Positions 23,068 through 40,133 of a DNA stretch of 40,417 nt are shown one piece after another. Position numbers and translations under genes: made by a program. Each line of letters starts with the position of its first letter. The stretch's first letter is position 1. The notes under the pieces are model-generated. The model was not told the origin of the DNA. It saw only the letters and a program-made list of their open reading frames with translations, and did not search any database. Origin of the DNA: Desulforudis sp. (lineage in GTDB: Bacteria > Bacillota > Desulfotomaculia > Desulfotomaculales > Desulforudaceae); NCBI GenBank assembly GCA_003604975.1, contig QZIR01000063.1:1-40417 (forward strand), written 5' to 3'.

Positions 23068-25073
23068 GATATTCTGCTAACCTGCCTTTGGCCAGATGCT
23101 GCGGTCTTCAGCCACTCAAGATACGCATTGGCGACATCATCGAGTTCATCATCTACGATCTTGGTCTGAACAGTAAGTTCTTGACCTTGACGGACCCCAT
23201 TTACTATTCGTATCTGTGTAACACGCTGCTGCCTAAGTATAAGACTACCGTCAGGACCACGCATGTAAATGGTATTACCCCTTTTGTCATGACCGATCGA
23301 ATCAGCAATAGCCATAAATACCGGGTAATCCTTGGATGATTCTCCTGGTGCCTTCCGCCGTAGTAAGACCATGCTGGTTTGCGTGTCGTTCCCGGGCTGA
23401 AATAGGTCACGGTGCATATCAACAATGGCGATTATCTGTGCCTTTTGAAGTAGCCAATAGCGGAAGTATGCTAGCCCAGGGTTATTCAATAGACCATTTG
23501 GTATAACAATTGCCATTCTTCCCGTCCCTGGTTTAAGGAATTGAAGGCAGCGCTCAACGAAAAGAATCTCAGGGGGCATTGAAGGTTGGAAGAGCCTGTT
23601 TCCATCCCTGTCTAGGCGTATTTCCCAATTATCTGACGTCTGAACCCACTGGCAGGCTACGTCATACTGTTCTAGAATTAGAGGGTCGTCAATAACGATT
23701 TTTGAGCCAAACGGAGGGTTGGTAAAAAGAACGTCAATGGAGCCTAGCGAGAGGTTGGCTCTTACATCTGCTGACCAGCGGTGGGGATTCTCCAAAGAGT
23801 TGCACTGAAAGAGGTTGCCAGATCCATCGTTGTTCATCACCATGTTCATCTTTGCAGCCCTGACCAAATTCGGATTAAGGTCAAGGCCAAAGACCCGCTT
23901 GGAGAGATAGTCGTTACGCTTATGGTAGAGTTCTTCAAGTTCGAATCGTGTTGGCTTAGAAATGTCCGCCCATTTCTCCTGCTCGGCCTCTTCGATAACC
24001 CTAAGAACGTGGTTCATGGCTGTAACCAAAAACCCTCCAGTCCCCATTGCAGGATCTAGGACGCGCTCGTTGGGTTGTGGGTCAAGCATTTTAACTGCCA
24101 TTTGGCACGCATTTCTTGGGGTGAAGAACTCGCCACGGTCGCCCCTAAGGTTACTTCCAACAACTTCTTCGTAGGCTACACCTTTAACGTCAACTGGTGA
24201 ATTGAGAAGGGAATAATGTTGTAACTCGGAGACAACATAGGCCAAAACTCTGGGATTCATTTCGATCTCGTCGTTGGTTTTGAAGATAGTAGGATATTTG
24301 TTGACAACCAACTCCGCGAAGACTCTCTGCAACCTGTTTTTAACCCGGGATTGGCCGTTCATAGTAGTTCTTTCTGATTCTGATACGTAAAACTGCAGAC
24401 TTTCATTAGATGAACGCTCGTCTTCAATTTTGCAGAAAATCAACTTAAGAAGCTCCCAGAAAGCCTCCGGCTTCTGTAAGCCTTGATTCCCTGCAATGTA
24501 GTTGTGACACCTACGGAATGCAAATAGTAGATTGTCCCCTGTTGCAGCACGAAGCACGTCCCGAGTAGGTGCGTCAACTCTTTTGTTTCCCATCGCTGGG
24601 ATGTCGATAGCTTCATCATTGCGAAAAACTTTGCCATCAAATGCTCGGCGGAAGCAAGCCCTAAACTCGCCGTTGGTCCACATCCCATACTCGCAGTTTA
24701 GGCAAGCAGCCATGTAGGATTTGAGCTGTTCGATCCCTTCCCTTTTGTCCTCCGGGTTGGTGCCGTTTTTCTTCGTCTCTACGATTATGAAAGCGGTATC
24801 CTGGTCATGTTTTGCGTCCATAGGGAATACTGCCAAGTCGACACGGACCCGTTTAGAGCCCTGCTTGATCGGAAACTCAACCTCAATCTGCTTTGGATCG
24901 TATCCGTATTCCAATACCAAGCTCCGGGCAATATTTTGCCGCACGTACTCCTCAGGGGTGTCGTTCACTAGCTTGCCAGTGATAAAGTCGACGAGCTTCC
25001 CCTCGGGAATGGATTCTAAATTAACTAATGCATCTGCAACCCTAAACTTATCCGCCGCCGCCATTTTATCCAC
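23064..25073 (-). CDS. Nuclease-methyltransferase fusion of a BcgI-like (type IIB/IIG) system
   Basis: A 669-aa protein in two parts. The N-terminal 150 residues match the type I HsdR N-domain: EVEFPIKQGSKRVRVDLAVF (D about 78) and FIIVETKKNG (E-x-K about 97-99), a PD-(D/E)xK nuclease core. From about 300 it is an HsdM-type adenine-N6 methylase with the GDRGEFFTPRNACQMAV entry, VLDPAMGTGGFL (motif I, about 340) and LFTNPPFGSKI (NPPF, motif IV, about 451). One chain that cuts and methylates, with a separate specificity subunit, is the BcgI plan: such enzymes cut on both sides of their site. Plain HsdM with a nuclease-like N-terminus and a distant HsdR is the alternative. Confidence 0.8.
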   Translation of the reverse strand: MDKMAAADKFRVADALVNLESIPEGKLVDFITGKLVNDTPEEYVRQNIARSLVLEYGYDPKQIEVEFPIKQGSKRVRVDLAVFPMDAKHDQDTAFIIVETKKNGTNPEDKREGIEQLKSYMAACLNCEYGMWTNGEFRACFRRAFDGKVFRNDEAIDIPAMGNKRVDAPTRDVLRAATGDNLLFAFRRCHNYIAGNQGLQKPEAFWELLKLIFCKIEDERSSNESLQFYVSESERTTMNGQSRVKNRLQRVFAELVVNKYPTIFKTNDEIEMNPRVLAYVVSELQHYSLLNSPVDVKGVAYEEVVGSNLRGDRGEFFTPRNACQMAVKMLDPQPNERVLDPAMGTGGFLVTAMNHVLRVIEEAEQEKWADISKPTRFELEELYHKRNDYLSKRVFGLDLNPNLVRAAKMNMVMNNDGSGNLFQCNSLENPHRWSADVRANLSLGSIDVLFTNPPFGSKIVIDDPLILEQYDVACQWVQTSDNWEIRLDRDGNRLFQPSMPPEILFVERCLQFLKPGTGRMAIVIPNGLLNNPGLAYFRYWLLQKAQIIAIVDMHRDLFQPGNDTQTSMVLLRRKAPGESSKDYPVFMAIADSIGHDKRGNTIYMRGPDGSLILRQQRVTQIRIVNGVRQGQELTVQTKIVDDELDDVANAYLEWLKTAASGQRQVSRIS

Positions 25074-25789: not shown

Positions 25790-26761
25790 TCACGATCTGG
25801 CTCTATTCACCCGCCCAGCACTGCTGAGTAGACTGTCCATTTGCTTACAGTCATCTGCCGCCACCACTAGACGCCTCTTAGCCCCCTCATCCTGCGACGC
25901 TGTTGTCAGGAAGCCCATCTGAAGCAACGGTGTTTTCGCACCACAGTACTCACAGTACCGTACGTCTCCAAGATTGCGCTTGCCGCAACGGTCGCAGTCG
26001 TTATACAAGTACAGCCCGCACACTCTGCAGTGTCTTGCGTACGGTGAGAATGCTGTGTTCCTGCATCTTGGGCAACATATGTATCTGCCATTTCCGTCTG
26101 TGGCCATAGCGCTAGGTCGTCGTTCGCGCTCTTGTTCCCCGGCTAGAAACTGACGAAACTGGTTGCGCAATGCCGTGGACAGAGCACCTGGCTTGTACCG
26201 CCACAGACCCAACTCGCTAACCCGGTTTCGCGCTGCTTCGCCTGAGACGAGGCATATACGGGCTATGGCCGGCGCGGTTGTAACGCCCAGCGCCTTAATG
26301 ATCATCATCGGCATAAGCAACTCGGCAGCAAAAAGGTCCGCCTCGCGTTCTAAAACACGGTATTCCCGGGTGGTGAGGCCACCTCTGCAGAGGCACGTGG
26401 CCTCGAAGTCGGTCAGGTGGGAAAGAACGATGTGGCCGATTTCGTGGGCGAGTGTCCATCGTACACGATTTGCTCTGGCCGTTGCTTTATGCACGGTTAC
26501 GTAGGTACCCGTATCGCGAGTTCGCAGGGTCCGGGCGTCAGCGCGGGCGCGTATAAGATTGAGCGGATCCGGCCGTCCGTAAATCTGCTCTGCCCGGCTG
26601 CAAGTGTACAACAACCAATCATGGTGTTGCGCATACAGAGAAAACGGATTTACCGGCAGCTGGCGAGTATCTGACTCGATGATGAATTGCCGGGCGATTC
26701 TAATAGAGCGTTCCTTGCGCGGTATCGATGGCAGCTGTTGTGTTCTTCTAAATCGAGACAC
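25790..26761 (-). CDS. ImmA/IrrE-family metallopeptidase with zinc-ribbon tail
   Basis: A 323-aa protein. The peptidase domain (about 20-190) carries the zincin motif WTLAHEIGHIVLSHL (HEIGH about 104-108) and the downstream glutamate helix EREADLFAAELLMP. Residues about 220-290 are a double zinc ribbon (CPRCRN, CRVCGLYLYNDCDRCGK, CEYCGAK). In ICEBs1, ImmA cuts the repressor ImmR to release the element. Here several XRE proteins nearby are possible substrates, the closest being 27371-27736. The start is GTG 26761; the ribosome site overlaps it poorly, so a start slightly downstream is possible. The same zinc-ribbon tail recurs, broken, at 25152-25549. Confidence 0.88.
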   Translation of the reverse strand: MSRFRRTQQLPSIPRKERSIRIARQFIIESDTRQLPVNPFSLYAQHHDWLLYTCSRAEQIYGRPDPLNLIRARADARTLRTRDTGTYVTVHKATARANRVRWTLAHEIGHIVLSHLTDFEATCLCRGGLTTREYRVLEREADLFAAELLMPMMIIKALGVTTAPAIARICLVSGEAARNRVSELGLWRYKPGALSTALRNQFRQFLAGEQERERRPSAMATDGNGRYICCPRCRNTAFSPYARHCRVCGLYLYNDCDRCGKRNLGDVRYCEYCGAKTPLLQMGFLTTASQDEGAKRRLVVAADDCKQMDSLLSSAGRVNRARS

Positions 26762-26814: not shown

Positions 26815-27038
26815 CTAGTCCAGCAATCCAACGAACTCGGAGACGCTGAACCCAGCCAGGAAGATCAGGCTTCTCAGTGTTCCGCGCTTAACAGGGTTAT
26901 GTCTTTGGATGCTTAATGGCCAGCGGTTCGGATATCTCTCAAAATTATATGTGAGCCTGACTGCCGATCGGCCCGGTATCCAGCCCGGCCGAAGGCCCGA
27001 ACAATATCCTTTGCTGGCAACCAAGGTACCGGCGGCAT
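26815..27038 (-). pseudogene. Frameshifted hicA toxin gene
   Basis: HicA begins MPPVPWLPAKDIVRAFGRAGYRADRQ...GSHIILR, directly after the HicB sequence and in the same frame, then loses frame. The rest, YPNRWPLSIQRHNPVKRGTLRSLIFLAG, is in another frame ending at 26815. The slip is within AGAGATAT (about 26935), consistent with a two-base GA insertion. HicA is an mRNA-cutting toxin with a double-stranded-RNA-binding fold; the catalytic His of GSHIILR is present but the fold is interrupted. The toxin should be inactive. Confidence 0.8.
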
Positions 27039-27260
27039 TGATACCGCCACCTCTACGGTTGCGATAATGGTACCACCGTCCAAGGGGGTAGGCTCATCGT
27101 TGGCGGATAAAGATGCAAGAAACACAGCAATGGCATCACGGATATTGGCAAGTGCTTCTTCAATGGTGTCGCCTTCGGACACGCACCCTGGCAGGGATGG
27201 GACTGTAACAATATATCCGCCGTCTTCGGGATCAGGAGTAAGAACCACACTATACCTCAT
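26913..27260 (-). CDS. hicB: HicB-like antitoxin fused to a truncated HicA
   Basis: The first 74 residues are HicB: MRYSVVLTPDPEDGGYIVTVPSLPGC, VSEGDTIEEALANIRDAI. HicB normally stops at about ...VEVAV, where hicA starts; here the codon is a serine and the frame runs on into HicA for another 40 residues (to SHIILRDIRTAGH). The result is a 115-aa antitoxin-half-toxin fusion. The DNA-binding tail of longer HicB proteins is absent, as is usual for this short type. It could still neutralise a related HicA elsewhere. Confidence 0.8.
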   Translation of the reverse strand: MRYSVVLTPDPEDGGYIVTVPSLPGCVSEGDTIEEALANIRDAIAVFLASLSANDEPTPLDGGTIIATVEVAVSMPPVPWLPAKDIVRAFGRAGYRADRQSGSHIILRDIRTAGH

Positions 27261-27370: not shown

Positions 27371-27736
27371 CTATCCCGGCAGTTTGTTCCGTCGTTTCAA
27401 TTTCCGCTCATGATATTCAATTAAAGCGTCGAGTGCCTCGGCGATCTGTTCCGCGTTTTCCTCCGGCAGATCCTTGGCCCGCATAATGGAGTCAATGAGT
27501 TTAGTGGTTTTCTGAGGAACTGGTGCGCCAGGTTTTGGGTGGGGGTCATCAGTCAATCCCAGAACGTAGTCGGTTGATACGAGATAGATATCGGCAAATA
27601 GCCTTAATTGATCTTCATTCAATCTTCTTTCGCCTTTTTCAAGATCGTACAAATGCTGTACCGAAATATCTAGTTTTTCAGCGACTTCTGCCGCGCTAAA
27701 TGGACTGCGCTTGCGCAGCTCTCTTAACCTGTTCAT
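27371..27736 (-). CDS. XRE-family repressor, candidate ImmR-like switch protein
   Basis: A 121-aa protein from ATG 27736 (a TTG lies immediately before). The HTH is at residues 3-60: LRELRKRSPFSAAEVAEKLDISVQHLYDLEKGERRLNEDQLRLFADIYLVSTDYVLGL. A linker and a helical C-terminal half follow (about 75-115; EENAEQIAEALDALIEYHERKLKRRNK), which probably dimerises. The size and divergent layout match the ImmR-type repressor of ICEs. Four copies of a TAAGCAA-type site lie between it and the rightward gene at 27935. It is the best candidate for the ImmA target. Confidence 0.8.
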   Translation of the reverse strand: MNRLRELRKRSPFSAAEVAEKLDISVQHLYDLEKGERRLNEDQLRLFADIYLVSTDYVLGLTDDPHPKPGAPVPQKTTKLIDSIMRAKDLPEENAEQIAEALDALIEYHERKLKRRNKLPG

Positions 27737-27751
27737 CAAAGCCCATCCCTA

Positions 27752-27909
27752 TTACGCTATTTGCTTAATTTAGCTTACCCCATAACCGGACATAAAACAA
27801 TAAGCAAAGTGCCGAATCAGGGAGCAATCCTCTAAGCAAGTACGCTAATCCAGCCATAAAGCCAGCATTGTGCTGAAATCGGAGTTGCCGGCCCTCGGCA
27901 ACTTGCTTA
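27752..27909. promoter_or_regulatory. Operator cluster with TAAGCAA-type sites
   Basis: Four 16-bp sites of the form TAAGCAA(A/G)T(A/G/T)(C/G)(C)G.. lie between two divergent HTH genes: 27752-27767 (minus strand), 27801-27816 (plus), 27833-27848 (plus, TAAGCAAGTACGCTAA) and 27894-27909 (minus). They are close to palindromic (TAAGC/GCTAA ends). Two overlap the likely leftward promoter region and two the rightward one, as expected for mutual repression. Confidence 0.6.
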
Positions 27910-27934
27910 ACATGGACACAGGAGGTGGCCACCC

Positions 27935-28192
27935 TTGAATGCCGCTGTCATTATCAGATCATCTATCAAGCAGCGTATGCGAGAGTTGAATGTCTCAGTC
28001 AACGATTTATCTCGTGAAACCGGATACACGAAACAGCATATTTATGATCTCCTAGCGAGCAACCGCCGTTGGAACGAAACGACTCTCGACAAAGTCTGTG
28101 ATGTCCTGCGCCTTAAGCTTGTCCTTATTGACGAAATCACAAATAATCCGGTTGCCTCAAGCGGAGGTGAAGCCCATGGCATCGTTCGATGA
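27935..28192 (+). CDS. Small HTH regulator, divergent partner of the switch repressor
   Basis: An 85-aa protein starting at TTG 27935, six bases after GGAGGTGG. The ribosome site is inside a perfect GGTGGCCACC palindrome (27924-27933), which could limit translation. An HTH spans residues 8-60 (IKQRMRELNVSVNDLSRETGYTKQHIYDLLASNRRWNETTLDKVCDVLRLKLVLID). This resembles a Cro/Xis-type small regulator set against the 27371 repressor. It overlaps the next gene's start. Confidence 0.65.
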   Translation: MNAAVIIRSSIKQRMRELNVSVNDLSRETGYTKQHIYDLLASNRRWNETTLDKVCDVLRLKLVLIDEITNNPVASSGGEAHGIVR

Positions 28193-28382
28193 AGTCGCAG
28201 CCGCAACCGGCACCGATACCGAATTGATGCCTCGCTTTCCGTTTGCGCGGATGATAGAGCTAACAAAGCTAATCGACGAGTTAATGCAAGACCTACTTGC
28301 AGGCTGCGAAACCCCGGATGAGGCCCGGTACGTCGCAACATTGGTCAAAGGCGCCGTGGACACCTGGTGCCGGCAGCCATAG
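28176..28382 (+). CDS. Small hypothetical protein
   Basis: A 68-aa protein from ATG 28176 with GGAGGTG just upstream; the start is inside the last codons of the previous gene, so the two are coupled. It is helical and hydrophilic (PFARMIELTKLIDELMQDLLAGCETPDEARYVATLVKGAVDTW). No family is recognised. It could be an accessory of the HTH protein. Confidence 0.55.
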   Translation: MASFDEVAAATGTDTELMPRFPFARMIELTKLIDELMQDLLAGCETPDEARYVATLVKGAVDTWCRQP

Positions 28383-28402
28383 TGTAAGCGTACCACTACG
28401 AG

Positions 28403-28421
28403 TCTCGAAAAAACCGTCGAA
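28403..28421 (+). repeat. Short fragment of the cassette repeat
   Basis: TCTCGAAAAAACCGTCGAA resembles the TCCCGAAAAACCCGTCGAA that lies inside the two long cassette repeats at 30552 and 32753. It follows the rightward genes of the first HTH pair, the same relative place as in the other cassettes. It is short enough that chance is possible. Confidence 0.3.
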
Positions 28422-28442
28422 CGGTGCTCATAGGGCAATAGT

Positions 28443-28772
28443 TTACGACTTGTGTCTGTTTAATATATCCAGTAAATGCTGGACAGTTGTCAGCTCATCG
28501 GGATCCAAGTTCCGGGCACTTTCAAGTAGCCGGCGTAGATCCGGCGGCAAGGGGTCCTGGCCTGCACCGGCGGGCGCGAAGAAGTCGGCCAGGGTGATGC
28601 CCAGGGCAGAACAGATGCGGTCAATGGTGTTAATTGTAGGATTACTTTTATTCTTTTCCAGATCACTGATAAACGAAGGGGATACATCGGCGGCTTCGGC
28701 AAGCTGTCGACCAGACATCCCAGCACTCGTACGCAGTTCACGGATTCTGTCACCAATTATGGTGGAGTTCAA
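28443..28772 (-). CDS. XRE-family regulator (leftward member of pair 2)
   Basis: A 109-aa protein from TTG 28772, with GGAGGG at seven bases. The HTH is at residues 6-65 (IGDRIRELRTSAGMSGRQLAEAADVSPSFISDLEKNKSNPTINTIDRICSALGITLADFFAP). The C-terminal tail DPLPPDLRRLLESARNLDPDELTTVQHLLDILNR is shared, with changes, by the leftward XRE proteins at 29832 and 32047, so the three are paralogues. SinR/ClgR-like repressor is the general class. It faces the rightward XRE gene at 28970 across its own operator. Confidence 0.8.
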   Translation of the reverse strand: MNSTIIGDRIRELRTSAGMSGRQLAEAADVSPSFISDLEKNKSNPTINTIDRICSALGITLADFFAPAGAGQDPLPPDLRRLLESARNLDPDELTTVQHLLDILNRHKS

Positions 28773-28795
28773 GGGGAAACCCTCCAGAAGTCAAG

Positions 28796-28813
28796 TGTTC
28801 GACATATCGAACA
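28796..28813. promoter_or_regulatory. Operator palindrome TGTTCGACATATCGAACA with half-sites
   Basis: A perfect inverted repeat (seven-base arms, four-base spacer) just upstream of the leftward XRE start. Further half or near sites lie at about 28840-28846 (TTCGAT), 28901-28910 (TATCGAACGC) and 28924-28937 (TGTTCGATATATGG), the last upstream of the rightward XRE gene. The arrangement suggests that one or both XRE proteins repress both promoters. Confidence 0.6.
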
Positions 28814-28969
28814 GCGACTTGCCATCATCATAAGACAATATTCGATGGAAGGCAAAGATTTTCAACGGAAAAGTACTAATAAAGCCGGATAATTCACCTA
28901 TATCGAACGCATTGGGCCTTGTGGTGTTCGATATATGGTAATACAGTTTAAATAGGTGGTGTCAGCTTA

Positions 28970-29176
28970 ATGATACGAACCCGCCTGAAAGTGAAAGATG
29001 TAAGAACTGAAAAAGGGTTCTCACAACGCCAACTGGCACGCAAAAGCGGGGTCAGCCTTGGACACATCAGCGAACTGGAGAGTGGCAAGGCTAATCCCTC
29101 ATTACTGACTCTCGACAAGCTGGCTGCCGCTCTAGATGTAGAAGTCTTTGACTTGCTTGATAGAACGACCGATTAG
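28970..29176 (+). CDS. XRE-family regulator (rightward member of pair 2)
   Basis: A 68-aa protein that is nearly all HTH (RLKVKDVRTEKGFSQRQLARKSGVSLGHISELESGKANPSLLTLDKLAAALDVEVFDLLD). AGGTGG precedes ATG 28970. It has no C-terminal extension, unlike the rightward XRE proteins at 30333 and 32540. Forty-four bases after its stop is a 22-nt remnant of the hammerhead ribozyme found behind those two genes. Confidence 0.8.
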   Translation: MIRTRLKVKDVRTEKGFSQRQLARKSGVSLGHISELESGKANPSLLTLDKLAAALDVEVFDLLDRTTD

Positions 29177-29220
29177 GCGGCTAACGCTAGCACAAGTCAG
29201 TTTGGATACTATCATACCAC

Positions 29221-29242
29221 GGCGGGGGTTGCGGAAAACCAC
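29221..29242 (+). ncRNA. Hammerhead ribozyme remnant (3' part only)
   Basis: Twenty-two bases match 32883-32904 of the intact ribozyme with one change (the cleavage triplet GTC is GTT). They cover the 3' strand of stem III, the cleavage triplet and the 3' strand of stem I. The CUGAUGAG...GAAAC core that should precede it is missing, so it cannot cleave. It marks a former ribozyme behind the 28970 regulator. Confidence 0.5.
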
Positions 29243-29279
29243 TAAATATGATTAATCCGCTAAGGGAGGCTAGGAATAC

Positions 29280-29489
29280 ATGCCAGGCCTTACGCCTAAG
29301 GAAAAGCGAGTGATAGAGTTTCTGTCCCGATCAGGACCTTATCCCTCGTACCAGACGATCGCCGAGCAATGTAGTCTTTCGGCAGCGCAGGTGTGTACCA
29401 CTATCAGGGAATTGGTGAGAAAAGGCTGCCTGGAAGTCCAAACCGAGCGCCGAAAGGGGTTCGCTCCCAAGCAATTTACCGTTTTGTGA
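29280..29489 (+). CDS. Small winged-helix protein
   Basis: A 69-aa protein from ATG 29280 with GGGAGG upstream. It is a compact winged helix (LTPKEKRVIEFLSRSGPYPSYQTIAEQCSLSAAQVCTTIRELVRKGCLEVQTERRKGFAPKQF), of the HTH_36/LexA-like N-terminal kind. It probably binds DNA as a dimer. Its last codons overlap the end of the leftward zinc-ribbon gene by 14 bases. Confidence 0.7.
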   Translation: MPGLTPKEKRVIEFLSRSGPYPSYQTIAEQCSLSAAQVCTTIRELVRKGCLEVQTERRKGFAPKQFTVL

Positions 29490-29814
29490 AAGCAGTCCGA
29501 ATCGCAGTAAGCAGATCAGCTATCGAAAAGCCTTTTACCGTCACACCATCGGTCTCTTTTTGCAGTGTAATATCTTTTGACAGAGTGTCAGCAAGTTCAT
29601 CGGGCCACGAATCGCGAAACGTAAAGCTAACTAACGAAAGAAGATCGATGATTTCCTGGATATTTTTCGCTTCAGTGGTTGAGAGTATCTCATACGCCGA
29701 GGAATGAGCTTCCGAGTAGAACTCGCCACAGAAAGCACACCACCAGTCTTGTTCTGTGGGCCTCTGGCACATTGGGCATATGTCTGGGGTAGGGGGAAGC
29801 TGACGAGTGTTCAT
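29476..29814 (-). CDS. Small zinc-ribbon protein downstream of an XRE gene
   Basis: A 112-aa protein from ATG 29814 with an N-terminal zinc ribbon (CPMCQRPTEQDWWCAFCGEF) and a helical C-terminus (NIQEIIDLLSLVSFTFRD, DELADTLSKDITLQ). It lies 17 bases after the leftward XRE gene at 29832-30170, so it is probably co-transcribed with it. The equivalent place in the third pair is taken by a membrane protein, so these may be interchangeable partner genes. Confidence 0.65.
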   Translation of the reverse strand: MNTRQLPPTPDICPMCQRPTEQDWWCAFCGEFYSEAHSSAYEILSTTEAKNIQEIIDLLSLVSFTFRDSWPDELADTLSKDITLQKETDGVTVKGFSIADLLTAIRTAFTKR

Positions 29815-29831
29815 TGATAATCAACCTTCCA

Positions 29832-30170
29832 TTACCTTGGTAAATCATCACGTTTGCTTAATCCGTTAATGATTGTCTGGATTGCGGCCAGTTGATTGGG
29901 GGTGAGGTTCTTGGCCGATTCGAGCAATGTACGTAAGTCCGCCGGCAGGGGGTCGGCCCCTTGGCCCATTGGTGCGAAGAAATCTGCCAGGGTTATGCCC
30001 AAGGCAGTACAGAGCTTTTGCAGAACGCTCAAGCTCGCCTTGCGTTTACCGGACTCGATCTCGCTTACTGTCGATTGGGCGACTCCGGCCTTCTTCGCCA
30101 AAGCGTTGGCCGAAATGTCGGCAACTGCACGAACTTCTGTCAGTCGTTGTCCAATATTCAAGCGTCTCAC
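29832..30170 (-). CDS. XRE-family regulator (leftward member of pair 3)
   Basis: A 112-aa protein from GTG 30170 or, with AGGTGAG at better spacing, TTG 30161. The HTH (IGQRLTEVRAVADISANALAKKAGVAQSTVSEIESGKRKASLSVLQKLCTALGITLADFFAP) and tail (DPLPADLRTLLESAKNLTPNQLAAIQTIINGL) are paralogous to 28443 and 32047. It faces the 30333 gene across a large inverted repeat. It leads a two-gene transcript with the zinc-ribbon gene at 29476. Confidence 0.8.
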   Translation of the reverse strand: MRRLNIGQRLTEVRAVADISANALAKKAGVAQSTVSEIESGKRKASLSVLQKLCTALGITLADFFAPMGQGADPLPADLRTLLESAKNLTPNQLAAIQTIINGLSKRDDLPR

Positions 30171-30255
30171 CTATCTGTTCGCAGATAAGTCCTGCATTGA
30201 GTATACCTGCAAAAAACTACGAAAACAAGAGAACAAAGGAGTAATTAACCAAAAC

Positions 30256-30306
30256 TATCTGATAATGCTATAATTTTAAAGTTGTAAATTATAGCATTAT
30301 CAGATA
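30256..30306. promoter_or_regulatory. Perfect 21-bp inverted repeat with two facing -10 boxes
   Basis: Arms 30256-30276 and 30286-30306 are exact reverse complements, separated by nine bases (TAAAGTTGT). Each arm contains TGCTATAAT, an extended -10 box, so the repeat carries two divergent promoters: one for the rightward XRE gene at 30333, one for the leftward gene at 29832. A dimeric repressor bound here would close both. No clear -35 boxes are seen. Confidence 0.65.
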
Positions 30307-30332
30307 ACCTTAATCTAGAGGGGGTTCCCAAA

Positions 30333-30608
30333 ATGTCGTCTCGTTTGGCGGAGCGCCTTATCCATATACGAGAAGCACGCAAAATCAGCCAAAACGCGTT
30401 GGCCAAAAAATCCGGTGTTGCACAGTCTTCAATAAGCGACATTGAAAGCAGCAAAAGAATTCCGTCACTACCGACGCTTGAAAAACTCGCTACCGCCCTG
30501 GGCGTTCCAGTGACAGCTCTGTTCGATGTAGGCCCGGGCACACCCAGTATCCATGATAACACGGCTTGTCCCGAAAAACCCGTCGAATCACAGATGAGGC
30601 AAGGCTGA
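30333..30608 (+). CDS. XRE-family regulator (rightward member of pair 3)
   Basis: A 91-aa protein from ATG 30333 with GAGGGGG upstream. The HTH is residues 5-62 (RLIHIREARKISQNALAKKSGVAQSSISDIESSKRIPSLPTLEKLATALGVPVTALFD). The last 18 residues (HDNTACPEKPVESQMRQG) are identical to those of the 32540 protein, because both genes end inside the same DNA repeat. Thirteen bases after the stop a hammerhead ribozyme begins, so the mRNA may be cut about 80 bases after the stop codon. Confidence 0.82.
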   Translation: MSSRLAERLIHIREARKISQNALAKKSGVAQSSISDIESSKRIPSLPTLEKLATALGVPVTALFDVGPGTPSIHDNTACPEKPVESQMRQG

Positions 30609-30704
30609 TGTTTAAGGTCCCGTTTCCGCCCGATGAGCCTGGGCGGTACCCAGGCGAAACTCCCGCCGTATCACCTCCCGGCGGGAGTCGCGGAAAACCA
30701 CCGC
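30552..30704 (+). repeat. Cassette repeat, copy A (XRE tail plus ribozyme)
   Basis: About 153 bp repeated at 32753-32907. The first 55 bases, from CATGATAACACGGCTTGTCC to the stop codon, are identical in both copies; the ribozyme part differs at a small number of positions that mostly keep its pairing. It joins the 3' end of a regulator gene to the ribozyme, so the two move or duplicate together. Confidence 0.8.
30622..30699 (+). ncRNA. Hammerhead ribozyme A (core base changed)
   Basis: Type I layout. Stem I 5' strand is GTTTCCGC (30622-30629). The core is CCGATGAG (30630-30637) in place of CTGATGAG, i.e. U4 is C. Stem II is GCCTGGG / CCCAGGC around CGGTA. GAAA is at 30656-30659. Stem III is a perfect eight-base stem CTCCCGCC / GGCGGGAG plus the A-U pair. 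The cleavage triplet AGTC ends at 30689. Stem I 3' strand is GCGGAAAAC (30690-30698). The U4 change should weaken or abolish cutting. Compared with copy B, stem II swaps a U-G for C-G and stem III a U-G for U-A, so pairing is kept. Confidence 0.8.
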
Positions 30705-30860
30705 TCAACTACGTCGGTGAGGATGGATCCGTGCTTGGGAGCATAACGACGGGCGCCTGGAACATCAAGCTGGACTGGAAGGGATGGGGGTCCTGTTGCT
30801 ACCACTTCTGAACAAAAGGGCCGGGTTCCACCACGGCCCCACCCAAAAGGAGTCTGCTGA

Positions 30861-31499
30861 ATGAACTTAGAGCCTAACTCAAAGAACACGGTAAACAACC
30901 GGTGCCAGTTTATCGACTCAGTTGGTGAATATCGGCCGGTTTCGGAGATTGAGACCGTGACCACAGTTTCTCGGCGTAGCCTTAGGCGCTTTGCGTTTGG
31001 CATAGGGCGTGGCCTTTTGCTTACGATCGGCTTACCGATGTTGGTCTTGCATTCTTCAAGGTATCTGGGATCCGCTGGGCTGGTGTCACCCGATGTCGCA
31101 CTGTTGGTCGGATTATGCAGCGTCCACTTCTGTGTGTTGGTCATGCTTCTTTTGGTTTCCGTGACCGCCAGTAACGGCGTGCTTGATTCGGGCATTTCCG
31201 GTCGTATGTGCCGAGGTGTTGTGCGCTTTTTCGTTGGTGACTTCCTTCTTGAGCAAACCATCCGTGAAGCCGAGAGGAGTAAGCTGCTGTCGCTATACCT
31301 TGAGCAGATAGTACGCAAGAACCAGGAAGAGCGCTTGAGTAACGACAATCCACCACTTCATAGATCCTTTGCAGATATGGAAGACTCTGAAGACGTACCT
31401 TTTCCGGTAGGCGACCGGCCAAAACATAACCCCGAGGGACTGCAGGAACGAGAAGAGCATAACAACCACCGAAAGAGCAAGACCAAAGACCTGGTATAG
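30861..31499 (+). CDS. Small membrane protein
   Basis: A 212-aa protein from ATG 30861 with AAAAGGAG upstream. It has two membrane helices (FGIGRGLLLTIGLPMLVL, about 47-65, and VALLVGLCSVHFCVLVMLLLVSV, about 78-102), then a charged cytoplasmic tail. The last 69 codons lie opposite the end of the leftward membrane-protein gene, an antisense overlap of 207 bases, so the tail composition may be constrained by the other strand. No family recognised. Confidence 0.55.
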   Translation: MNLEPNSKNTVNNRCQFIDSVGEYRPVSEIETVTTVSRRSLRRFAFGIGRGLLLTIGLPMLVLHSSRYLGSAGLVSPDVALLVGLCSVHFCVLVMLLLVSVTASNGVLDSGISGRMCRGVVRFFVGDFLLEQTIREAERSKLLSLYLEQIVRKNQEERLSNDNPPLHRSFADMEDSEDVPFPVGDRPKHNPEGLQEREEHNNHRKSKTKDLV

Positions 31500-32021
31500 C
31501 GCCTTGCCAAAGAGATTGTCTATTTCGATAGCTTGAAGGCCTGACTGCTGGAGGGATTCCAGATGAGTAGCATACGTCGGGTCGACCAGGGATAAAGAGA
31601 AGACTCTGAGATTGTAAGCAACAATCGCGAAAGTCAAAAGGCTCCATAAGTTGATTAGGCTGAACCGGCGATCGCGGTAAAAGGAGAGCGCAGCAAACGA
31701 CATTGCTGAAGTACCAAAGAAAGTGAGCACGATCCAGCCCACATAGACGATTGTGGCGCCGTAGTTGCCAATCAACCAGGTGGCGACCAAATATGCGGAC
31801 AGCGAGCCAATGATCCACAGCACCCAATGGTCATTGCCTGAAGCAGCCGACTTGTTAGGTATCGTAGCCTGAGATTTTACGGAGATACTGATGTGATGCG
31901 GCGGATGGGCAACACGGTGAAAGAGGTAATCATCAATGGTAGGTTCTCCGGGACGGGAGCGGCCGGCAAAGAAAGCACCGGTGGCTAGACCAGATACGAT
32001 GCTGATTGCGAAGCCAAGCAC
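31293..32021 (-). CDS. Polytopic membrane protein downstream of an XRE gene
   Basis: A 242-aa protein from GTG 32021 (no well-spaced ribosome site; it follows the XRE stop by 25 bases and may be coupled to it). About six hydrophobic helices are visible: GFAISIVSGLATGAFFAG, VLWIIGSLSAYLVATWLIG, ATIVYVGWIVLTFFGTSAMSF, LINLWSLLTFAIVAYNL, VFGLALSVVVMLFSFLQSLGVMF and WWIVVTQALFLVLAYYLL. I recognise no family. It holds the same place relative to its XRE gene as the zinc-ribbon protein at 29476 does to its own. Confidence 0.65.
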   Translation of the reverse strand: MLGFAISIVSGLATGAFFAGRSRPGEPTIDDYLFHRVAHPPHHISISVKSQATIPNKSAASGNDHWVLWIIGSLSAYLVATWLIGNYGATIVYVGWIVLTFFGTSAMSFAALSFYRDRRFSLINLWSLLTFAIVAYNLRVFSLSLVDPTYATHLESLQQSGLQAIEIDNLFGKALYQVFGLALSVVVMLFSFLQSLGVMFWPVAYRKRYVFRVFHICKGSMKWWIVVTQALFLVLAYYLLKV

Positions 32022-32046
32022 GATTTCAATAGGAGTCGTAACGTCT

Positions 32047-32367
32047 TCACCTCTTCATGCTCCTAATGAGCTTTTTGAGTGCAGCCAGCTGCTCTGGCGT
32101 AAGCTCTCTGGCTTCGCGGATCACCTGGTGCAATTCATTAGATACTGGCTCGGTGCTCTCTACCACGGGACCGAAAAACTCGGCCAGGGTGATGCCGAGG
32201 GCGGAACAAATGGCGGCCAGTGTTTCAAGCGAAGCCGGTTTCCCCAGTTCAATCTCGTTCAGATACGAACGAGAAATGCCGCTCGCTTTAGCCAGAGAAA
32301 CGAGGGTAAAACCGGAACTCTTTCTCAGCTTTCGGATGCGCGATCCAAGGTCGGTTAACTCGTTCAT
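32047..32367 (-). CDS. XRE-family regulator (leftward member of pair 4)
   Basis: A 106-aa protein from ATG 32367, seven bases after AGGAG; a longer frame upstream has no ribosome site. HTH: LGSRIRKLRKSSGFTLVSLAKASGISRSYLNEIELGKPASLETLAAICSALGITLAEFFGP. The tail (NELHQVIREARELTPEQLAALKKLI) is paralogous to those at 28443 and 29832. It faces the XRE gene at 32540 and probably heads a transcript with the membrane protein at 31293. Confidence 0.8.
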   Translation of the reverse strand: MNELTDLGSRIRKLRKSSGFTLVSLAKASGISRSYLNEIELGKPASLETLAAICSALGITLAEFFGPVVESTEPVSNELHQVIREARELTPEQLAALKKLIRSMKR

Positions 32368-32402
32368 GTGTTCGCTCCTAGCGACATCCAACCAACTCGA
32401 TA

Positions 32403-32477
32403 ATAGTTGATATTGGCAGAAAAAGCAAGGCTGGAAGAGAAAGTTAAGAAACAACTAAAGGAATAGTCAATATTAGC
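32403..32477. promoter_or_regulatory. Direct repeat in the divergent promoter region of pair 4
   Basis: ATAGTTGATATTGGC (32403-32417) and ATAGTCAATATTAGC (32463-32477) are 15-base repeats with three differences, 60 bases apart, between the two divergent XRE genes. They are candidate operators, one near each start. The spacing places them on the same face of the helix only roughly. Confidence 0.45.
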
Positions 32478-32539
32478 GATATATGAACATTGAGAAACGT
32501 CACCATTTGCGACATACTGCAAAGAAAGGAGTAGATCCA

Positions 32540-32809
32540 ATGCCCGTTGGAGCGCAAATCCTTGCCATAAGACGTCAGCGCAAGCTTACCCAAGTACAAT
32601 TGGCGGCGAAAAGCAAGGTTTCACGCAACTATATCTCCGAAATCGAAAACGGCACTAAAACGCCCAGCATTCCGACATTAGAGAAGATCGCCGCCGCCCT
32701 GGGCGTGTCCACAGGCACTCTTTTTGATCATAGTCGTAGCGCCACTAACCTTCATGATAACACGGCTTGTCCCGAAAAACCCGTCGAATCACAGATGAGG
32801 CAAGGCTGA
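32540..32809 (+). CDS. XRE-family regulator (rightward member of pair 4)
   Basis: An 89-aa protein from ATG 32540 with GAAAGGAG upstream (an in-frame ATG at 32483 has none). HTH: QILAIRRQRKLTQVQLAAKSKVSRNYISEIENGTKTPSIPTLEKIAAALGVSTGTLFD. The C-terminal 18 residues are identical to those of the 30333 protein and are encoded in the shared repeat. The ribozyme with the intact core begins 14 bases after the stop. Confidence 0.82.
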   Translation: MPVGAQILAIRRQRKLTQVQLAAKSKVSRNYISEIENGTKTPSIPTLEKIAAALGVSTGTLFDHSRSATNLHDNTACPEKPVESQMRQG

Positions 32810-32907
32810 TGTTTGAGATCTCCGTTTCCGCCTGATGAGTCTGGGCGGTACCCAGGCGAAACTCCCCGCCGTCACACATCCCGGCGGGGGTCGCGGAAAA
32901 CCACCGC
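32753..32907 (+). repeat. Cassette repeat, copy B (XRE tail plus ribozyme)
   Basis: Partner of the repeat at 30552-30704. The boundary on the left is inside the XRE reading frame, so the tails of two different regulators have been made identical. On the right, similarity stops just after stem I of the ribozyme (CCACCGC). Confidence 0.8.
32824..32901 (+). ncRNA. Hammerhead ribozyme B (intact catalytic core)
   Basis: Stem I 5' strand GTTTCCGC (32824-32831); core CTGATGAG (32832-32839); stem II GTCTGGG / CCCAGGC around CGGTA (32839-32857); GAAA (32858-32861); stem III CTCCCCGCC / GGCGGGGG with a 12-base loop and one bulged C (32862-32890); cleavage triplet GTC (32890-32892); stem I 3' strand GCGGAAAAC (32893-32901). 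Every invariant hammerhead core base is present, so self-cleavage between 32892 and 32893 is expected. Hammerhead ribozymes are known in bacterial genomes and prophages, but their role there is unclear. Cutting would trim the regulator mRNA 83 bases after its stop. Confidence 0.88.
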
Positions 32908-32909
32908 GC

Positions 32910-33804
32910 CGACCACACTATGGTCGGCACTGAACAATGACGCACATACAACAAACAACGCAGCACGCGGGCCTGGGCAGACCGCACACGATCGGGCGCC
33001 AGGTGGGCGACTTGGGGACGCAGGGGGCGGATTCCAGCACACATCCGGTCCTGTAGCGTATCCTGGGGCGTACCGTACGGTCCGGACCAGCTATCGCACA
33101 CTATCTGGCTCAAACCGGACGAAGTCACAACGAGCAGTAATTGTAGCTTTTTTCAAGCACCTCACTGTAACAACCGGACCACACAACCTTGTACCATAAC
33201 TTCCAATGGTAGCAGCTTGGACGCGCCAGGAGATTATGATCTTTGACAACAGCACACCTCGTGCTCTGCAGGGGCTGCGGCACATGCTGCCACACGATCC
33301 GGTGGACAGGCTACCTTTGCGTCTTTCACACAACGTAGGCGAGACGAGGAGGATGATGCTGTGCCGGCTGTCTTTTGTGCTGTATTCCCGAAAAAGGAGC
33401 GTAGGTGTGTACGACGCCGGATAGACTGGGGGCCACGAAAGCGATCGTTAGTCCCCGGGCAGCAAGCTGGGCTGTTCCGGGAACTAACGGGCGGGCATCG
33501 GGTTGGTGGTACTATACGGCGGTGAGTCGGGGGTCGCTTGGGTAGTCGACTTACCTGAACCCCGGGGTCGCGAGACCAAAGAGAGGGTGGACAAGACCAC
33601 GAAAGCGGGATTGCCCGTGGAGTAGTGGTGGCGAATGAAGTCCGAAGGCACGCGCAATTGGGAGCGCAAGACCCCCGACTATAATTATAAATATTCTTTT
33701 GATCCCTGCGGCCGAAAACTCCGGGGGCCGTAGAGATGAAGAGAAGTTGTTGTTTGGATCTAGATTTTTCCGGAAGAAAGCGGGTATCATGAAGGTGAAT
33801 TGCA
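32910..33804. other. Gene-poor region with possible decayed genes
   Basis: About 900 bases with no gene I can support. Right after the ribozyme is a hairpin GCCGACCACACTATGGTCGGC (about 32908-32928). At about 33247-33340 a plus-strand TTG frame after AGGAG reads as a short Cys-rich peptide (LCRGCGTCCHTIRW); the stop that ends it is followed by more protein-like sequence (CAVFPKKERRCVRRRIDW, about 33370-33430). Around 33535-33725 another plus frame (PRGRETKERVDKTTKAGLPVE, then a stop, then KSEGTRNWERK) also looks like broken coding sequence. A large structured RNA is the alternative. A 203-codon minus-strand frame here has coding-unlike composition. Confidence 0.35.
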
Positions 33805-35892: not shown

Positions 35893-38115
35893 TTGCACGA
35901 CTTTGGAGTATTACACTTGTTTGCCGGAATAGGCGGTGCCGCCCTTGGGATGCAGGAGGCAGAGCAGGAATGGCGCGGAATTCGGGGTCGGTACGTTACC
36001 TTGGCCGGGATTGACGTTGACCCTGAAGCCTGCCGCGACTTTGAAATGTTCACCGGCGCGCCGGCGGTACAGATGGATCTATTTGGCCGGGACGATTACC
36101 GGGCTTTTCATGGCAAGGAACCGCCGAAAGAATGGCGGGAAGCCAAACCGGCCGACATCCAGGCAGCCACCGGCGGTATCGCTCCGGACGTGATCTTTAC
36201 GAGTCCGCCGTGTAAAGGTTTTAGTGGACTTCTACCCAGTAAGAACGCCAATTCGGAGAAGTACCAGGCCCTGAACCGGCTGACCCTACGCGGGCTACGC
36301 TTGGCTCTGGATGCGTTTCGAGACGACCTGCCCGGGATTATCCTGCTGGAGAATGTCCCCCGGATTACTTCGCGAGGTGCGGATCTGTTGCGGGAGATTA
36401 AGCAGCTGCTCGGTGTTCACGGGTATCTGCTTCACGAAGGCTATCACGACTGCGGGGAGATCGGCGGCCTGGGACAGCGCCGTCGACGGTACCTATTAAT
36501 TGCCCGACTGCCGTCGAAGGTGAACGCCTTTGTATATCAACCCCCGAAACAGCGTGTTCGGTCCATCGGGGAGATTATCGGACCTTTGCCGCTTCCGGAT
36601 AACCCGGCCGGGGGCGCTATGCATCGGTTGCCTCGGTTGCAGTGGAAAACCTGGGTCCGTCTGGCCTTAATCCCGGCCGGCGGGGACTGGCGTAACCTTG
36701 AACACATCACACCGGAACAGTACTCCTTGGAATACGTCCCTCGGGGTGGCGGCCCCTACGGAGTACAGGATTGGGAGTGTGCTGCGAACACTGTTATCGG
36801 TCATGCCAAGGTGCGCGGGAGTAACGGTGCCGCAGTAGCAGATCCCCGGGTTAGGGATGGAATCCAGTACCACAATGGAGCTTACCGGATCTGCCCTTGG
36901 TGTACTACGGCTCCAACCGTGACTGGTGGCAGTCCAGCGACCAGCTCCGGGAAGTGTATTACGGACCCTCGCTTGCAGCACTGTCCCCGGGAAGGTGTTT
37001 ATCGAGTTCAGCGATTTGATGAGCCCAGTACGACAGTGACTGGTGCATCCAGGGTTAATACATCGAACGGTGCTGCCTGCGTAAGTGACCCACGCCTACC
37101 GGACCGGGACAATCGACACCCAGGAGTGTACCAGATAATGCGCTTCGATGGGTCCGGCCCATGTGTGACTGGTACCCGTTTTGGAAGCGGTGCGCCAGCG
37201 GTGGCCGATCCCCGAGTAGGCGGCGGATTCTCCAATAAGCGCAAAGTTCACGCTTGGGATAAGCCAGCGGGAACGGTCACGGGAACTTCTGATATTCAGG
37301 CGGGAGCCCCAAGCATCGCCGATCCCCGGCTGAATCCCCGCAACAGCAGACGTAGCAATTCCTATACCGTGCGGTCCTGGGATAATCCGGCGTTGACCAT
37401 CACCGGTGAGGATTCGCTCGGCAGCGGCGCTCAGTCCATAGCTGACCCGCGCATCCCGTTCAACAACATTTTCAAGGTTACGGCTTGGGATGGTACCCCC
37501 GGAGCCGTCACTAGCGGTTCTGGCCAAACCGGGATTACGGTGGCCGACCCACGCCTAGCCATCAACCCCAACGGCCATCACAACCTGCTGCGTGTTACAC
37601 CCTGGGTCAATCCAGCCAATACTATCACCAGTGCGTCGCGGCCCACGGCCGGTGCAATTTCGATAGGTGATCCTCGTTTAGGGTGCAACTGCCGGAACGG
37701 GCTTTACGGTGTTCAGGCATGGGACGAGCCTGGATACACGGTGACGGGGGCGCGGAATCTGCATAGCGGCACTACATCGGTAGCGGACCACCGGATCCCG
37801 GCCGACACAGAGCAAGGTGTATGGATCATCATCGCAGAGGACGGCACTTGGCATCGTCCGCTGACGACGTGGGAACTGATGGCTCTGCAAGGCTTTCCAC
37901 TCTTAATGCCGGACGGCAGCCCGGTGATCCTAGCCGGCAAAGCAGACGCACGGTGGCGGGAACGGATAGGCAATGCAGTACCACCACCAGCGGCCCAGGC
38001 TATTGGTGATGCCATCTTACAAGCATTGTTACCGAGTCAAGTGGGTGCCTGGGTGATGGGGAGTACGGCGATATGGGTACGGCCGAACAGGCAGCTATAT
38101 GCCGACTCTGTGTAG
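35893..38115 (+). CDS. DNA cytosine-5 methyltransferase with nine internal repeats
   Basis: A 740-aa protein from TTG 35893, after GAGGTGAG. C5-MTase motifs in order: FAGIGGAALGM (I, about 9), FTSPPCKGFSG (IV, PC about 106), LLENVPRI (VI, about 153), LGQRRRRYLLIARL (VIII, about 194), WELMALQGFP (near 660) and GNAVPP (X, near 693). The region between VIII and the final motifs is about 340 residues of tandem repeats: nine units, each with (V/I)xxWDxPxxTVTG followed by (A/S)(V/I)ADPR. Most C5-MTases have one such unit beside a single target-recognition domain. It methylates the fifth carbon of cytosine in an unknown site. Confidence 0.9.
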   Translation: MHDFGVLHLFAGIGGAALGMQEAEQEWRGIRGRYVTLAGIDVDPEACRDFEMFTGAPAVQMDLFGRDDYRAFHGKEPPKEWREAKPADIQAATGGIAPDVIFTSPPCKGFSGLLPSKNANSEKYQALNRLTLRGLRLALDAFRDDLPGIILLENVPRITSRGADLLREIKQLLGVHGYLLHEGYHDCGEIGGLGQRRRRYLLIARLPSKVNAFVYQPPKQRVRSIGEIIGPLPLPDNPAGGAMHRLPRLQWKTWVRLALIPAGGDWRNLEHITPEQYSLEYVPRGGGPYGVQDWECAANTVIGHAKVRGSNGAAVADPRVRDGIQYHNGAYRICPWCTTAPTVTGGSPATSSGKCITDPRLQHCPREGVYRVQRFDEPSTTVTGASRVNTSNGAACVSDPRLPDRDNRHPGVYQIMRFDGSGPCVTGTRFGSGAPAVADPRVGGGFSNKRKVHAWDKPAGTVTGTSDIQAGAPSIADPRLNPRNSRRSNSYTVRSWDNPALTITGEDSLGSGAQSIADPRIPFNNIFKVTAWDGTPGAVTSGSGQTGITVADPRLAINPNGHHNLLRVTPWVNPANTITSASRPTAGAISIGDPRLGCNCRNGLYGVQAWDEPGYTVTGARNLHSGTTSVADHRIPADTEQGVWIIIAEDGTWHRPLTTWELMALQGFPLLMPDGSPVILAGKADARWRERIGNAVPPPAAQAIGDAILQALLPSQVGAWVMGSTAIWVRPNRQLYADSV
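36764..37795 (+). repeat. Nine-fold coding repeat inside the cytosine methyltransferase
   Basis: The repeated unit is 35-45 codons long and carries a W/F-D..P..TVTG block followed by xxxADPR. TVTG-like blocks are TVIG, TVTG, TVTG, CVTG, TVTG, TITG, AVTS, TITS and TVTG; the DPR-like blocks are ADPR, TDPR, SDPR, ADPR, ADPR, ADPR, ADPR, GDPR and ADHR. Units are diverged at the DNA level, so the expansion is old or under selection for variation. Confidence 0.85.
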
Positions 38116-38405: not shown

Positions 38406-40070
38406 GTGAAACAGCTATATGCCGTATCTTATGGCCGTGTCTCTGATCCGCGACAGGCTGACAAAGGGATCTCAGTCCCGGCACAGCTTCAAGCAAACCG
38501 GCACTATGCGGAAAGTAATAACATAATCATTGTTGCTGAAGACGCAGACGAAGGTAAGAGTGCATTTCGGGATGATATAAAGAGACCCAGGTTTGAGCGA
38601 CTTTTGCACATTGCTAAGACTGACCCGCGGATTACTCTGTTTCTTGTCCACGACTCCAGTCGATTTTGTCGGCGCAAGCGCCAGGCTAATGTGTTAAAGG
38701 CTGACTTGGAGCGCCATGGGGTACGCGTGGTCTCTGTTACCAGTCCGTATGACGAGAAGACTATTGCCGGCAAATGGATGGAGTCAATAGAAGAAACACG
38801 CTCTGAGACTGAGAGTATGGCAATTTCCCTTCACGTCCTTTCAAAAATGAAATCTCACATCGCTATGCGTGACCCCGAGACGGGGTGGTGCTACAAAAAC
38901 GGCGGTCGTGCCCCCGCAGGATATAGAAACGTGCGGGTGCAGCGAGGTGTGGACAGTCGCGGGATTCCAGTCCTCAAGCAGCTTTGGGAACATGATCCTG
39001 AATGGGCAACACTTCTCCGTCATATTGTTGTAGATTGCAAAATTGCTCAAAGGATGTCCCATAAAGCGATCGTTGAATACCTTAATGCACAGAAGATCAG
39101 AAGCCCGGAGGGACGTCCGATTTGCATCAGTTTTATTTGTGAGCTTTTCCGCGAGGATCGGTTGCTTCAGGCTGCAGGCTACGCTTTTTGGAATCGTGAA
39201 GACCGTCGTGTTAAAGGCCAACGGTTCAAAGATAGGTCTGAGTGGGTTACTGTTGAAAACGCGCACCCAGCCATTATCAGCAGAGAAGAGGCTCAGCGAG
39301 CACGCGAGATGTGTGGCCAGAAACATCGTACCAGGGTTCCACCGCGCCTTGAAGACAGTCCCTGGCTCTTCACTGGTAAGAACTTCGACAGCGAAGACTT
39401 CTTCGTTTGCACTGCTTGCGGTGGGCGTATGGCTAGCCACATCCAGGGCGGAAGACACAAGCCGTCTTATCGTTGCGGAACAGTAACGTATCAGGGTAAA
39501 GAGGCTTGCCGCAATGAGCAGATTGAAAAGGTTTGGCTTGAAGCACAGATAGTTAGTCAAATCAAGAGTCGCTTTACGTCAGAAACGCTTGATCTATTGA
39601 TGCTGCAAGTTGCTGAGGCAGTAGAGGCAGAAACAAGTCAATACAAAGTAGCCCTGGGCAACATTGAAAAGGCGATCAGGGAAGCTAACACCGAGATCGG
39701 GAACCTGGTCAAGGCCGTCGCTAAGGGTGCTAACGTGGACCTGTATAATACAATGATTGACGAGTGTCAAGCAGGGCTCAGGGAGTTGCATAGAGAAAAA
39801 GAAAAACTGGCTCTTGCAAAGCCAGCCATCTCAAATGTTGACATACAGCGCTTAAAAGAGTATGTCAACAGCTTAGACCAAGTTCTAGCTCAAGGTACCA
39901 ATCGGGAGCGCCGGGATTTTATCCGGACTTTCATCCGGAGGATGAAGTTCGATCCAGATGAAAAGCGGATCACAATCTACTGGTACGCGAACCCAATCCA
40001 GGTTCAGAGCCTCGATATGTGCACACACGAAGATGTGCGGTGTTTAACTGGTGTCGGAGGGGGGACTTGA
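38406..40070 (+). CDS. Large serine recombinase (integrase/excisionase of the element)
   Basis: A 554-aa protein from GTG 38406, after a near-ideal AAAGGAGGTG. The resolvase catalytic domain spans about 1-150, with the nucleophile in [12 protein letters not shown] (Ser 13), [15 protein letters not shown] and later the E-helix [18 protein letters not shown]. The recombinase domain follows (about 165-300), then the zinc beta ribbon (CTACGGRM...[12 protein letters not shown], about 337-365), a coiled coil (about 395-475) and a short tail ([15 protein letters not shown]). It cuts and joins DNA at att sites. The stop codon lies inside the tRNA-Leu gene, so about 22 bases are shared; the last residues (GVGGGT) are translated from tRNA sequence. 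Confidence 0.95.
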
Positions 40071-40133
40071 ACCCCCACGGTGTTAACCACACGCCCCTCA
40101 AACGTGCGCGTCTGCCGATTCCGCCACTCCGAC
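40049..40133 (-). tRNA. tRNA-Leu (anticodon GAG)
   Basis: On the minus strand the 5' acceptor strand is GTCGGAG (40127-40133) and the 3' strand CTCCGAC (40053-40059), followed by discriminator A and an encoded CCA (40049-40051). The anticodon loop is TTGAGGG within the stem CACGT/GCGTG, giving anticodon GAG (Leu, CUC/CUU). A long variable arm and TTCAAGTCC T-loop are present, as expected for a leucine tRNA. Its 3' end borders the element and overlaps the recombinase gene, so it is the probable attachment site. Confidence 0.95.

Follow-up and report, generated by a model that had tools for sequence, protein, structure and literature searches.

The DNA analysed here, a stretch of 40,417 bp from Desulforudis sp. 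that makes up the entire contig C30 of a 3.14 Mb genome in 75 contigs (hereafter the window), carries a row of four divergent pairs of XRE-type helix-turn-helix (HTH) genes, two of which end in a hammerhead RNA predicted to cleave itself. We consider it reasonably probable that this row represents four CI/Cro-like switches of the ImmR/CapH/SinR kind in an integrative conjugative element (ICE), and that it was assembled by the exchange of modules and not by recent in-place copying of a cassette. The evidence comes from the anatomy of the genes, the fold and covariation of the hammerheads, the borders of sequence identity, the recurrence of such rows in relatives and the co-location of a peptidase gene.

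The original prediction had placed the four pairs at 27371/27935, 28443/28970, 29832/30333 and 32047/32540, and all eight HTH genes were found there. Seven of them score strongly for Pfam HTH_3, the remaining one being an HTH_26 protein (R1). In each pair, a leftward gene (L1 to L4, minus strand) faces a short rightward gene (R1 to R4, plus strand) across a gap of 162-197 bp, a range that uses the likely starts of L4 (32370) and R4 (32540), and dyads are present in these intergenic regions, in agreement with the operators that had been proposed. Four divergent long/short HTH pairs around dyads, among them a perfect 21-bp dyad in pair 3, give the row a CI/Cro-type layout. L1 (27371..27739; HTH_3 8.5e-10, capH 4.6e-9) is a repressor of a distinct type without the ADFF tail and stands opposite R1 (27935..28192; HTH_26 5.5e-9). 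The CapH/SinR-like repressor L2 (28443..28772; HTH_3 1.3e-15) has an ADFFAP tail and matches almost the full capH model (5.1e-16); operator region 2 (28773..28969), with several inverted repeats of the TTCGATAT type, separates it from the Cro-like R2 (28970..29176; 68 aa, HTH_3 5e-17). L3 (29832..30170), likewise CapH/SinR-like and with a Pfam HTH, lies to the left of operator region 3 (30256..30306), whose perfect 21-bp inverted repeat holds the TATAAT of a promoter-like site directed towards the Cro-like R3 (30333..30608; HTH_3 2.1e-17). Finally, L4 (32047..32370; HTH_3 6.3e-16) and the Cro-like R4 (32540..32809; HTH_3 2.5e-18) enclose operator region 4 (32371..32539) with its TAGCGATAT and AATAGTTGATATTGGC repeats. 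A common tail, ADFFAP...LPxDLRxLLESA, had been claimed for three of the leftward proteins; it is close in L2 and L3, but L4 has only a diverged version (AEFFGP...VSNELHQVIREA).

R3 and R4 end in one repeat of 153-155 bp, present on the plus strand at 30552..30704 and 32753..32907. The two copies have sharp borders, are 94% identical overall and 100% identical over the opening 57 nt, and code for the final 18 residues of both proteins (HDNTACPEKPVESQMRQG) before continuing into the hammerhead. This identity, together with the folding of both copies, confirms that the two R genes share a repeat and a ribozyme, as had been noticed from the sequence. The ribozyme fragment reported after pair 2 is equally real: a remnant of the hammerhead 3' half follows R2 (29220..29242, plus strand) with a match of 22/23 nt that never arose in shuffles. 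A remnant of the R-tail repeat after pair 1 (28403..28421, plus strand; 17/19 nt, 0 in 100 shuffles) could also be verified; however, it does not follow R1 directly but an extra small open reading frame (ORF) co-directional with R1 (28176..28382, plus strand). The genome contains two full copies of the repeat, plus the remnants, all within the row.

Comparing cassettes 3 and 4 end to end, we found 53% identity in the L genes, 49% in the operators and 58% in the HTH part of R, where the random baseline is 50%, compared with 100% (57 nt) and 90% within the tail and hammerhead and 55% in the 3' flank. On this profile, the tail and hammerhead are the only parts that pairs 3 and 4 have recently shared. 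The original prediction had interpreted the row as repeated duplication of a whole cassette, and this part of it does not hold, since the L genes, operators and R-HTH parts are near background. L3 has its best relatives in G070 (65% and 57%), G049 (53%) and another locus of the same genome (52%), whereas it is only 47% identical to L2 and 39% to L4. The identity profile and these closer relatives of L3 together leave no support for a recent copying of the entire cassette in place, and the profile rules this out as the simple account, although the tree test described below is not decisive.

Rows of divergent L/R pairs were found across the order (G009, G015, G034, G036, G056, G057, G061, G062, G063, and G066). 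The same pairs and rows also occur in viral contigs, and their phage relatives are annotated as repressors or regulators. When G061 was compared with G062 and G063, most of the flanks and of both tails proved more than 90% identical, but a core of about 430 bp comprising R-HTH, operator and L-HTH only about 50%. Similarly, two pairs within the G056 genome agree completely at their L ends and in the sequence that follows R, whereas their cores are near background. Other genomes contain several within-genome pairs whose tails are more alike than their HTHs by a margin of more than 15 points, the opposite of the pattern expected from HTH conservation. These alignments indicate that, in the relatives, the recognition core has been exchanged as a block between constant ends. 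With the terms tried, a literature search turned up nothing that describes CI/Cro pairs in rows or XRE genes combined with a hammerhead.

Most of these rows have no hammerhead at the 3' end of R, and other structures were seen there. An imperfect dyad, approximately TTATCAYA...TGTTATAA followed by TGTCG, lies 30-100 nt past the R stop codon in G015, G036, G056, and G057 (L037, L009, L169, and L008) and may serve in termination or recombination or act as an RNA element. In L170, L171, and L174 (G061-G063), the R genes are followed by several copies per row of a strong hairpin, ATTATCCCC...GGGGATAAT, which encloses a GCCGTCAAG/CTTGACGGC stem. No hammerhead was found in G061, G062, G063, and G066, but cmscan gave sub-threshold matches resembling HDV-F-prausnitzii in these genomes (30-38 bits, cut-off 44; best E 0.0015) on the R strand downstream of the XRE rows, at L171:1801-1882(-), L170:304-385(-), L174:5055-5135(+), and L173:1328-1398(-). 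If real, they would represent a second ribozyme class near XRE rows.

Both window copies fold as type I hammerheads, HH3 (30620..30698, plus strand; -41.9 kcal/mol) with a z-score of -3.8 and HH4 (32822..32901, plus strand) with one of only -1.4; HH3 was also hit by our hammerhead model. HH4 has the consensus CUGAUGA, GAA and GUC elements and shows every feature of the type I core (CUGAUGA, GAA, A15.1-U16.1 and a UH cleavage site), whereas HH3 reads CCGAUGA, i.e., carries a U4C change. Cleavage is predicted at 30689/30690 in HH3 and at 32892/32893 in HH4, the latter 83 nt past the R4 stop codon. The fold of three helices, in which stem I opens to the flanks, is supported by compensatory changes: among 22 distinct relatives, 11 of 19 pairs show two-sided changes, 91% of alignment cells are paired compared with at most 47% with slid partners, and 49 doubly changed cells stand against 13.7 in shuffles. 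The alignment behind these values (A4) was fitted to the hammerhead model and leans towards it; a MAFFT alignment of five sequences built without structure (A3) gives the same picture. Rfam returned only a sub-threshold RAGATH-1-hammerhead for the window (HH4, 17.8 bits, cut-off 56.3), and none of 20 hammerhead loci reached the gathering score for a hammerhead, a score that is a curation criterion and not a functional one. The ribozyme call is therefore supported by covariation in relatives instead of by Rfam, and we regard HH3 and HH4 as type I hammerheads that are predicted to be self-cleaving. A further hammerhead with a U4C core change and otherwise intact stems was seen at G431:C7:206085-206150. 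In G015, the 3' half of the middle hammerhead (L037:6244-6314(-)) is 95% identical to the neighbouring copy and its 5' half is broken, a state that we liken to the 3'-half remnant after R2.

The left part of the window encodes a VirB4-like ATPase, an FtsK-like protein, an M23 peptidase and topoisomerase III (TopB). At its right end, a large serine recombinase gene (38406..40070, plus strand; Pfam Resolvase/Recombinase), the integration module of the element, extends into a tRNA-Leu(GAG) gene (40052-40133), and contig C45 holds an exact 21-nt copy of the tRNA-Leu 3' end without a tRNA there. By its gene content, the window DNA is an ICE whose far end lies outside the window, and tRNA-Leu is probably its integration site. 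The genes between the pairs differ, as expected for the variable cargo that had been suggested: a small winged-HTH gene 3' of the hammerhead remnant (29280..29489, plus strand; HTH_36/MarR_2) is cargo of module 3, L3 has a zinc-ribbon-like partner gene (29476..29814, minus strand; CPMC...CAFC motifs, no Pfam match), and a 212-aa ORF 3' of HH3 (30861..31499, plus strand) and a putative 242-aa membrane protein with hydrophobic stretches behind L4 (31293..32021, minus strand) match no family. The roughly 900 bp beyond HH4 (32908-33800) contain no convincing gene and have a GC-rich, repeat-like part at 33420-33690; they have no Rfam match and are single copy in the genome, and searching 33380-33760 in the order gave short matches at chance level only. 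Restriction-modification genes for a methyltransferase and a specificity-like subunit (21664-25073, minus strand) and, judged by eye, a Dcm-like methyltransferase (35893-38115, plus strand) are also present.

At the L-side end of the row, 0.6 kb from L1, lies a gene for an M78 metallopeptidase of the ImmA/IrrE/CapP type (25790..26761, minus strand; Pfam PF06114 3.8e-9) with the HEXXH motif as HEIGH and a C-terminal zinc ribbon. PADLOC matched this protein to capP (7.5e-16) and L1-L3 to capH; no CBASS effector was matched among the ten proteins scanned. A structure model of L3 (pLDDT 86) consists of the HTH and a C-terminal helical hairpin; its best full-length fold match is SinR (1b0n), with DdrO next among full-length repressors. 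DdrO is the substrate of IrrE. In a Pfam M78 search, 8 of the 12 rows examined had a peptidase of this kind next to them (G000, G015, G034, G036, G056, G057, G061, and G062). By analogy with the ImmR/ImmA pairs of ICEBs1 and TnSmu1 and with CapH/CapP (PMC10233336), the M78 peptidase probably cleaves one or more of the L repressors on DNA damage, and damage may activate it to remove them; the idea of a single peptidase acting on several L proteins is speculative. Between the peptidase gene and L1, a 115-aa ORF (26913-27260, minus strand) appears, by eye only, to join a HicB-like part to a HicA-like end.

Several findings weigh against our interpretation of the row. The trees of XRE proteins, proposed in the original prediction as a check, are divided: L3 groups with the G070 proteins (support 88), but the approximately unbiased (AU) test does not reject L2, L3 and L4 as one clade (p 0.27). 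The tails of L2, L3 and L4 are not unusually conserved relative to their HTHs, so that core exchange within the window is seen only on the R side, at the R3/R4 end, and among within-genome pairs the tails exceed the HTHs in only 13/36 L pairs and 5/25 R pairs. The U4C change of HH3 is reported to lower activity considerably in vitro, yet it suffices for a viroid in vivo (PMC3088659). Moreover, 4 of the 12 rows have no M78 gene in reach, some of them on short contigs. The AU result leaves some room for an ancient in-place duplication, in which an ancestral L-operator-R-hammerhead unit would have been copied three times and diverged, with the tail and hammerhead homogenised by gene conversion. 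The four pairs have one gene order, the remnants show successive degrees of decay, and the tails of L2, L3 and L4 are related, all of which would fit such a history. We nevertheless consider it unlikely: L3 is closer to a protein of another family, from G070 (65%), than to L2 or L4, L1 and R1 are of another XRE type, and pairs 3 and 4 are hardly more alike in their operators and L genes than random sequence.

The distribution of the hammerheads bears on whether they belong to the switches at all. A first model, built from five sequences, identified 22 hammerheads in 15 of the 113 genomes of the order that were searched; a second model added one in the order, and 17 of 398 genomes sampled from the phylum were positive. 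An exact hammerhead pattern matched only 4 stretches in named genomes, and no phage DNA similar to R4 plus hammerhead was found. According to the neighbour genes tabulated for 39 hammerheads, most lie on the coding strand directly after a mobile-element gene, often 0-20 nt from its stop codon, and the core CUGA sometimes doubles as that stop. A short XRE gene, mostly a member of a divergent pair, lies 0-217 nt upstream in 7 of the 23 hammerheads of the order (two in the window, two in G015, and one each in G036, G034, and G090), i.e., in five genera and in 5 of the 15 hammerhead-bearing genomes. No XRE gene stands directly upstream in any of 16 hammerheads elsewhere in Bacillota or in about 14 viral ones, which include a few near-duplicates. 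The association with XRE genes is thus genuine but local, not a general property of the ribozyme. The XRE-operator-XRE-ribozyme arrangement of the original prediction thus recurs, but most hammerheads of the class follow other mobile-element genes, and a strict tie to XRE genes is ruled out; ribozymes apart from XRE genes, named beforehand as counter-evidence, speak in part against that prediction. Eight further hammerheads of the order lie ahead of a gene encoding a QS(L/I)(C/W)P(S/P)Y protein, and several of these elements also carry parAB or XRE pairs. The protein family starting with this motif, about 320 aa long with weak HTH matches, is encoded about 90-110 nt 3' of the hammerhead in six genomes (L036:5084-6052, L039:4990-5943, L041:1835-2833 and relatives). 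In a prophage-like region of G484, a Twister-P5 ribozyme above the gathering score (L067:1820-1890(-)) shares a strand with a hammerhead and lies about 250 nt further upstream.

That hammerheads elsewhere follow many unrelated genes would suit a small mobile or converting element, consisting of tail and hammerhead, that lands behind genes and meets XRE genes only by chance; the repeat of G015 and G034 is indeed little more than the hammerhead (about 73 nt; 71+24 nt) and stands behind different genes. Such an origin appears rather improbable given that this genome has only two full copies and remnants, all in the row, that inspection by eye found no evident target-site duplication at the repeat borders, and that the units lie directly behind a stop codon, on the strand of the gene. 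Equally doubtful, in our view, is that the hammerheads are functionless relics decaying as recombination carries them along, an idea to which the U4C of HH3, the 23-nt and 19-nt remnants and the broken 5' half of one G015 copy lend some weight, but against which HH4 retains all core positions and stems, and the stems covary across genera. A toxin-antitoxin function was set aside, L and R both being HTH proteins with no toxin family found beside them, and so was an integron-like cassette organisation, which the repeats at the gene ends had brought to mind and for which no attC search was made.

Several known systems resemble parts of the row. Among bacterial and phage hammerheads (Perreault et al., 2011; PMC3088659), many lie near integrase or prophage genes and some flank ardA as tandem copies; they share the type I core and three stems with HH3 and HH4. 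Unlike them, the hammerheads described here lie in the 3' untranslated region of a Cro-like gene, are shared between modules and fall below Rfam gathering scores, and the word "repressor" does not occur in the text of that study. In ICEBs1 and TnSmu1, an XRE repressor beside an M78 peptidase (ImmR/ImmA) controls an ICE at tRNA-Leu (PMC10233336), as may be the case here; however, the window has four L/R pairs with separate operators and one peptidase, and two pairs carry ribozymes. The matches of L1-L3 and the peptidase to capH and capP, and of the L3 fold to DdrO, relate the row to CapH/CapP of CBASS and to DdrO/IrrE, but here several repressors each face a Cro-like partner, and the proteins scanned included no CBASS effector. 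In lambdoid phages, a divergent repressor/Cro pair surrounds the operator, and the whole recognition core is exchanged between related phages. The row shares both properties; in contrast to lambdoid immunity, one element has several switches in a row, and the shared 3' ends between which they are exchanged include one with a predicted self-cleaving RNA. We consider the observation unusual; it represents a variation on mobile-element hammerheads and ImmR/CapH-type switches.

From these features we infer how the proposed switches may work. In the quiet state, L, with its HTH and small oligomerisation tail, would repress the divergent promoters, and R, a short Cro-like regulator, would counter it. 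Once R4 is transcribed, HH4 would cut the RNA and separate the R message from read-through RNA; the hammerhead probably cuts the Cro-like mRNA in this way about 80 nt past the stop codon. The message would thereby receive a defined 2',3'-cyclic-phosphate 3' end, and R would be uncoupled from downstream genes. The shared ends, here the R tail and hammerhead, may provide a foothold for recombination while the DNA-recognition cores change. More tentatively, the rows could form a modular repressor repertoire, in which HTH-operator-HTH cores are swapped between constant ends (the oligomerisation tail on L; a tail plus a self-cleaving ribozyme or another RNA element on R), a single resident ImmA-like peptidase is able to release every repressor, and the cores give changing immunity against other mobile DNA.

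To our knowledge, bacterial hammerheads have been known for more than ten years without a clear job. That hammerheads of separate genera repeatedly lie directly 3' of the stop codon of Cro-like regulators offers a concrete and testable setting for their function. Core exchange in rows of switches would be a possible route by which mobile elements change their immunity specificity, with a logic comparable to the swapping of restriction specificity subunits. Recurring rows with swapped DNA-recognition parts and constant ends suggest a mix-and-match control system for mobile DNA.

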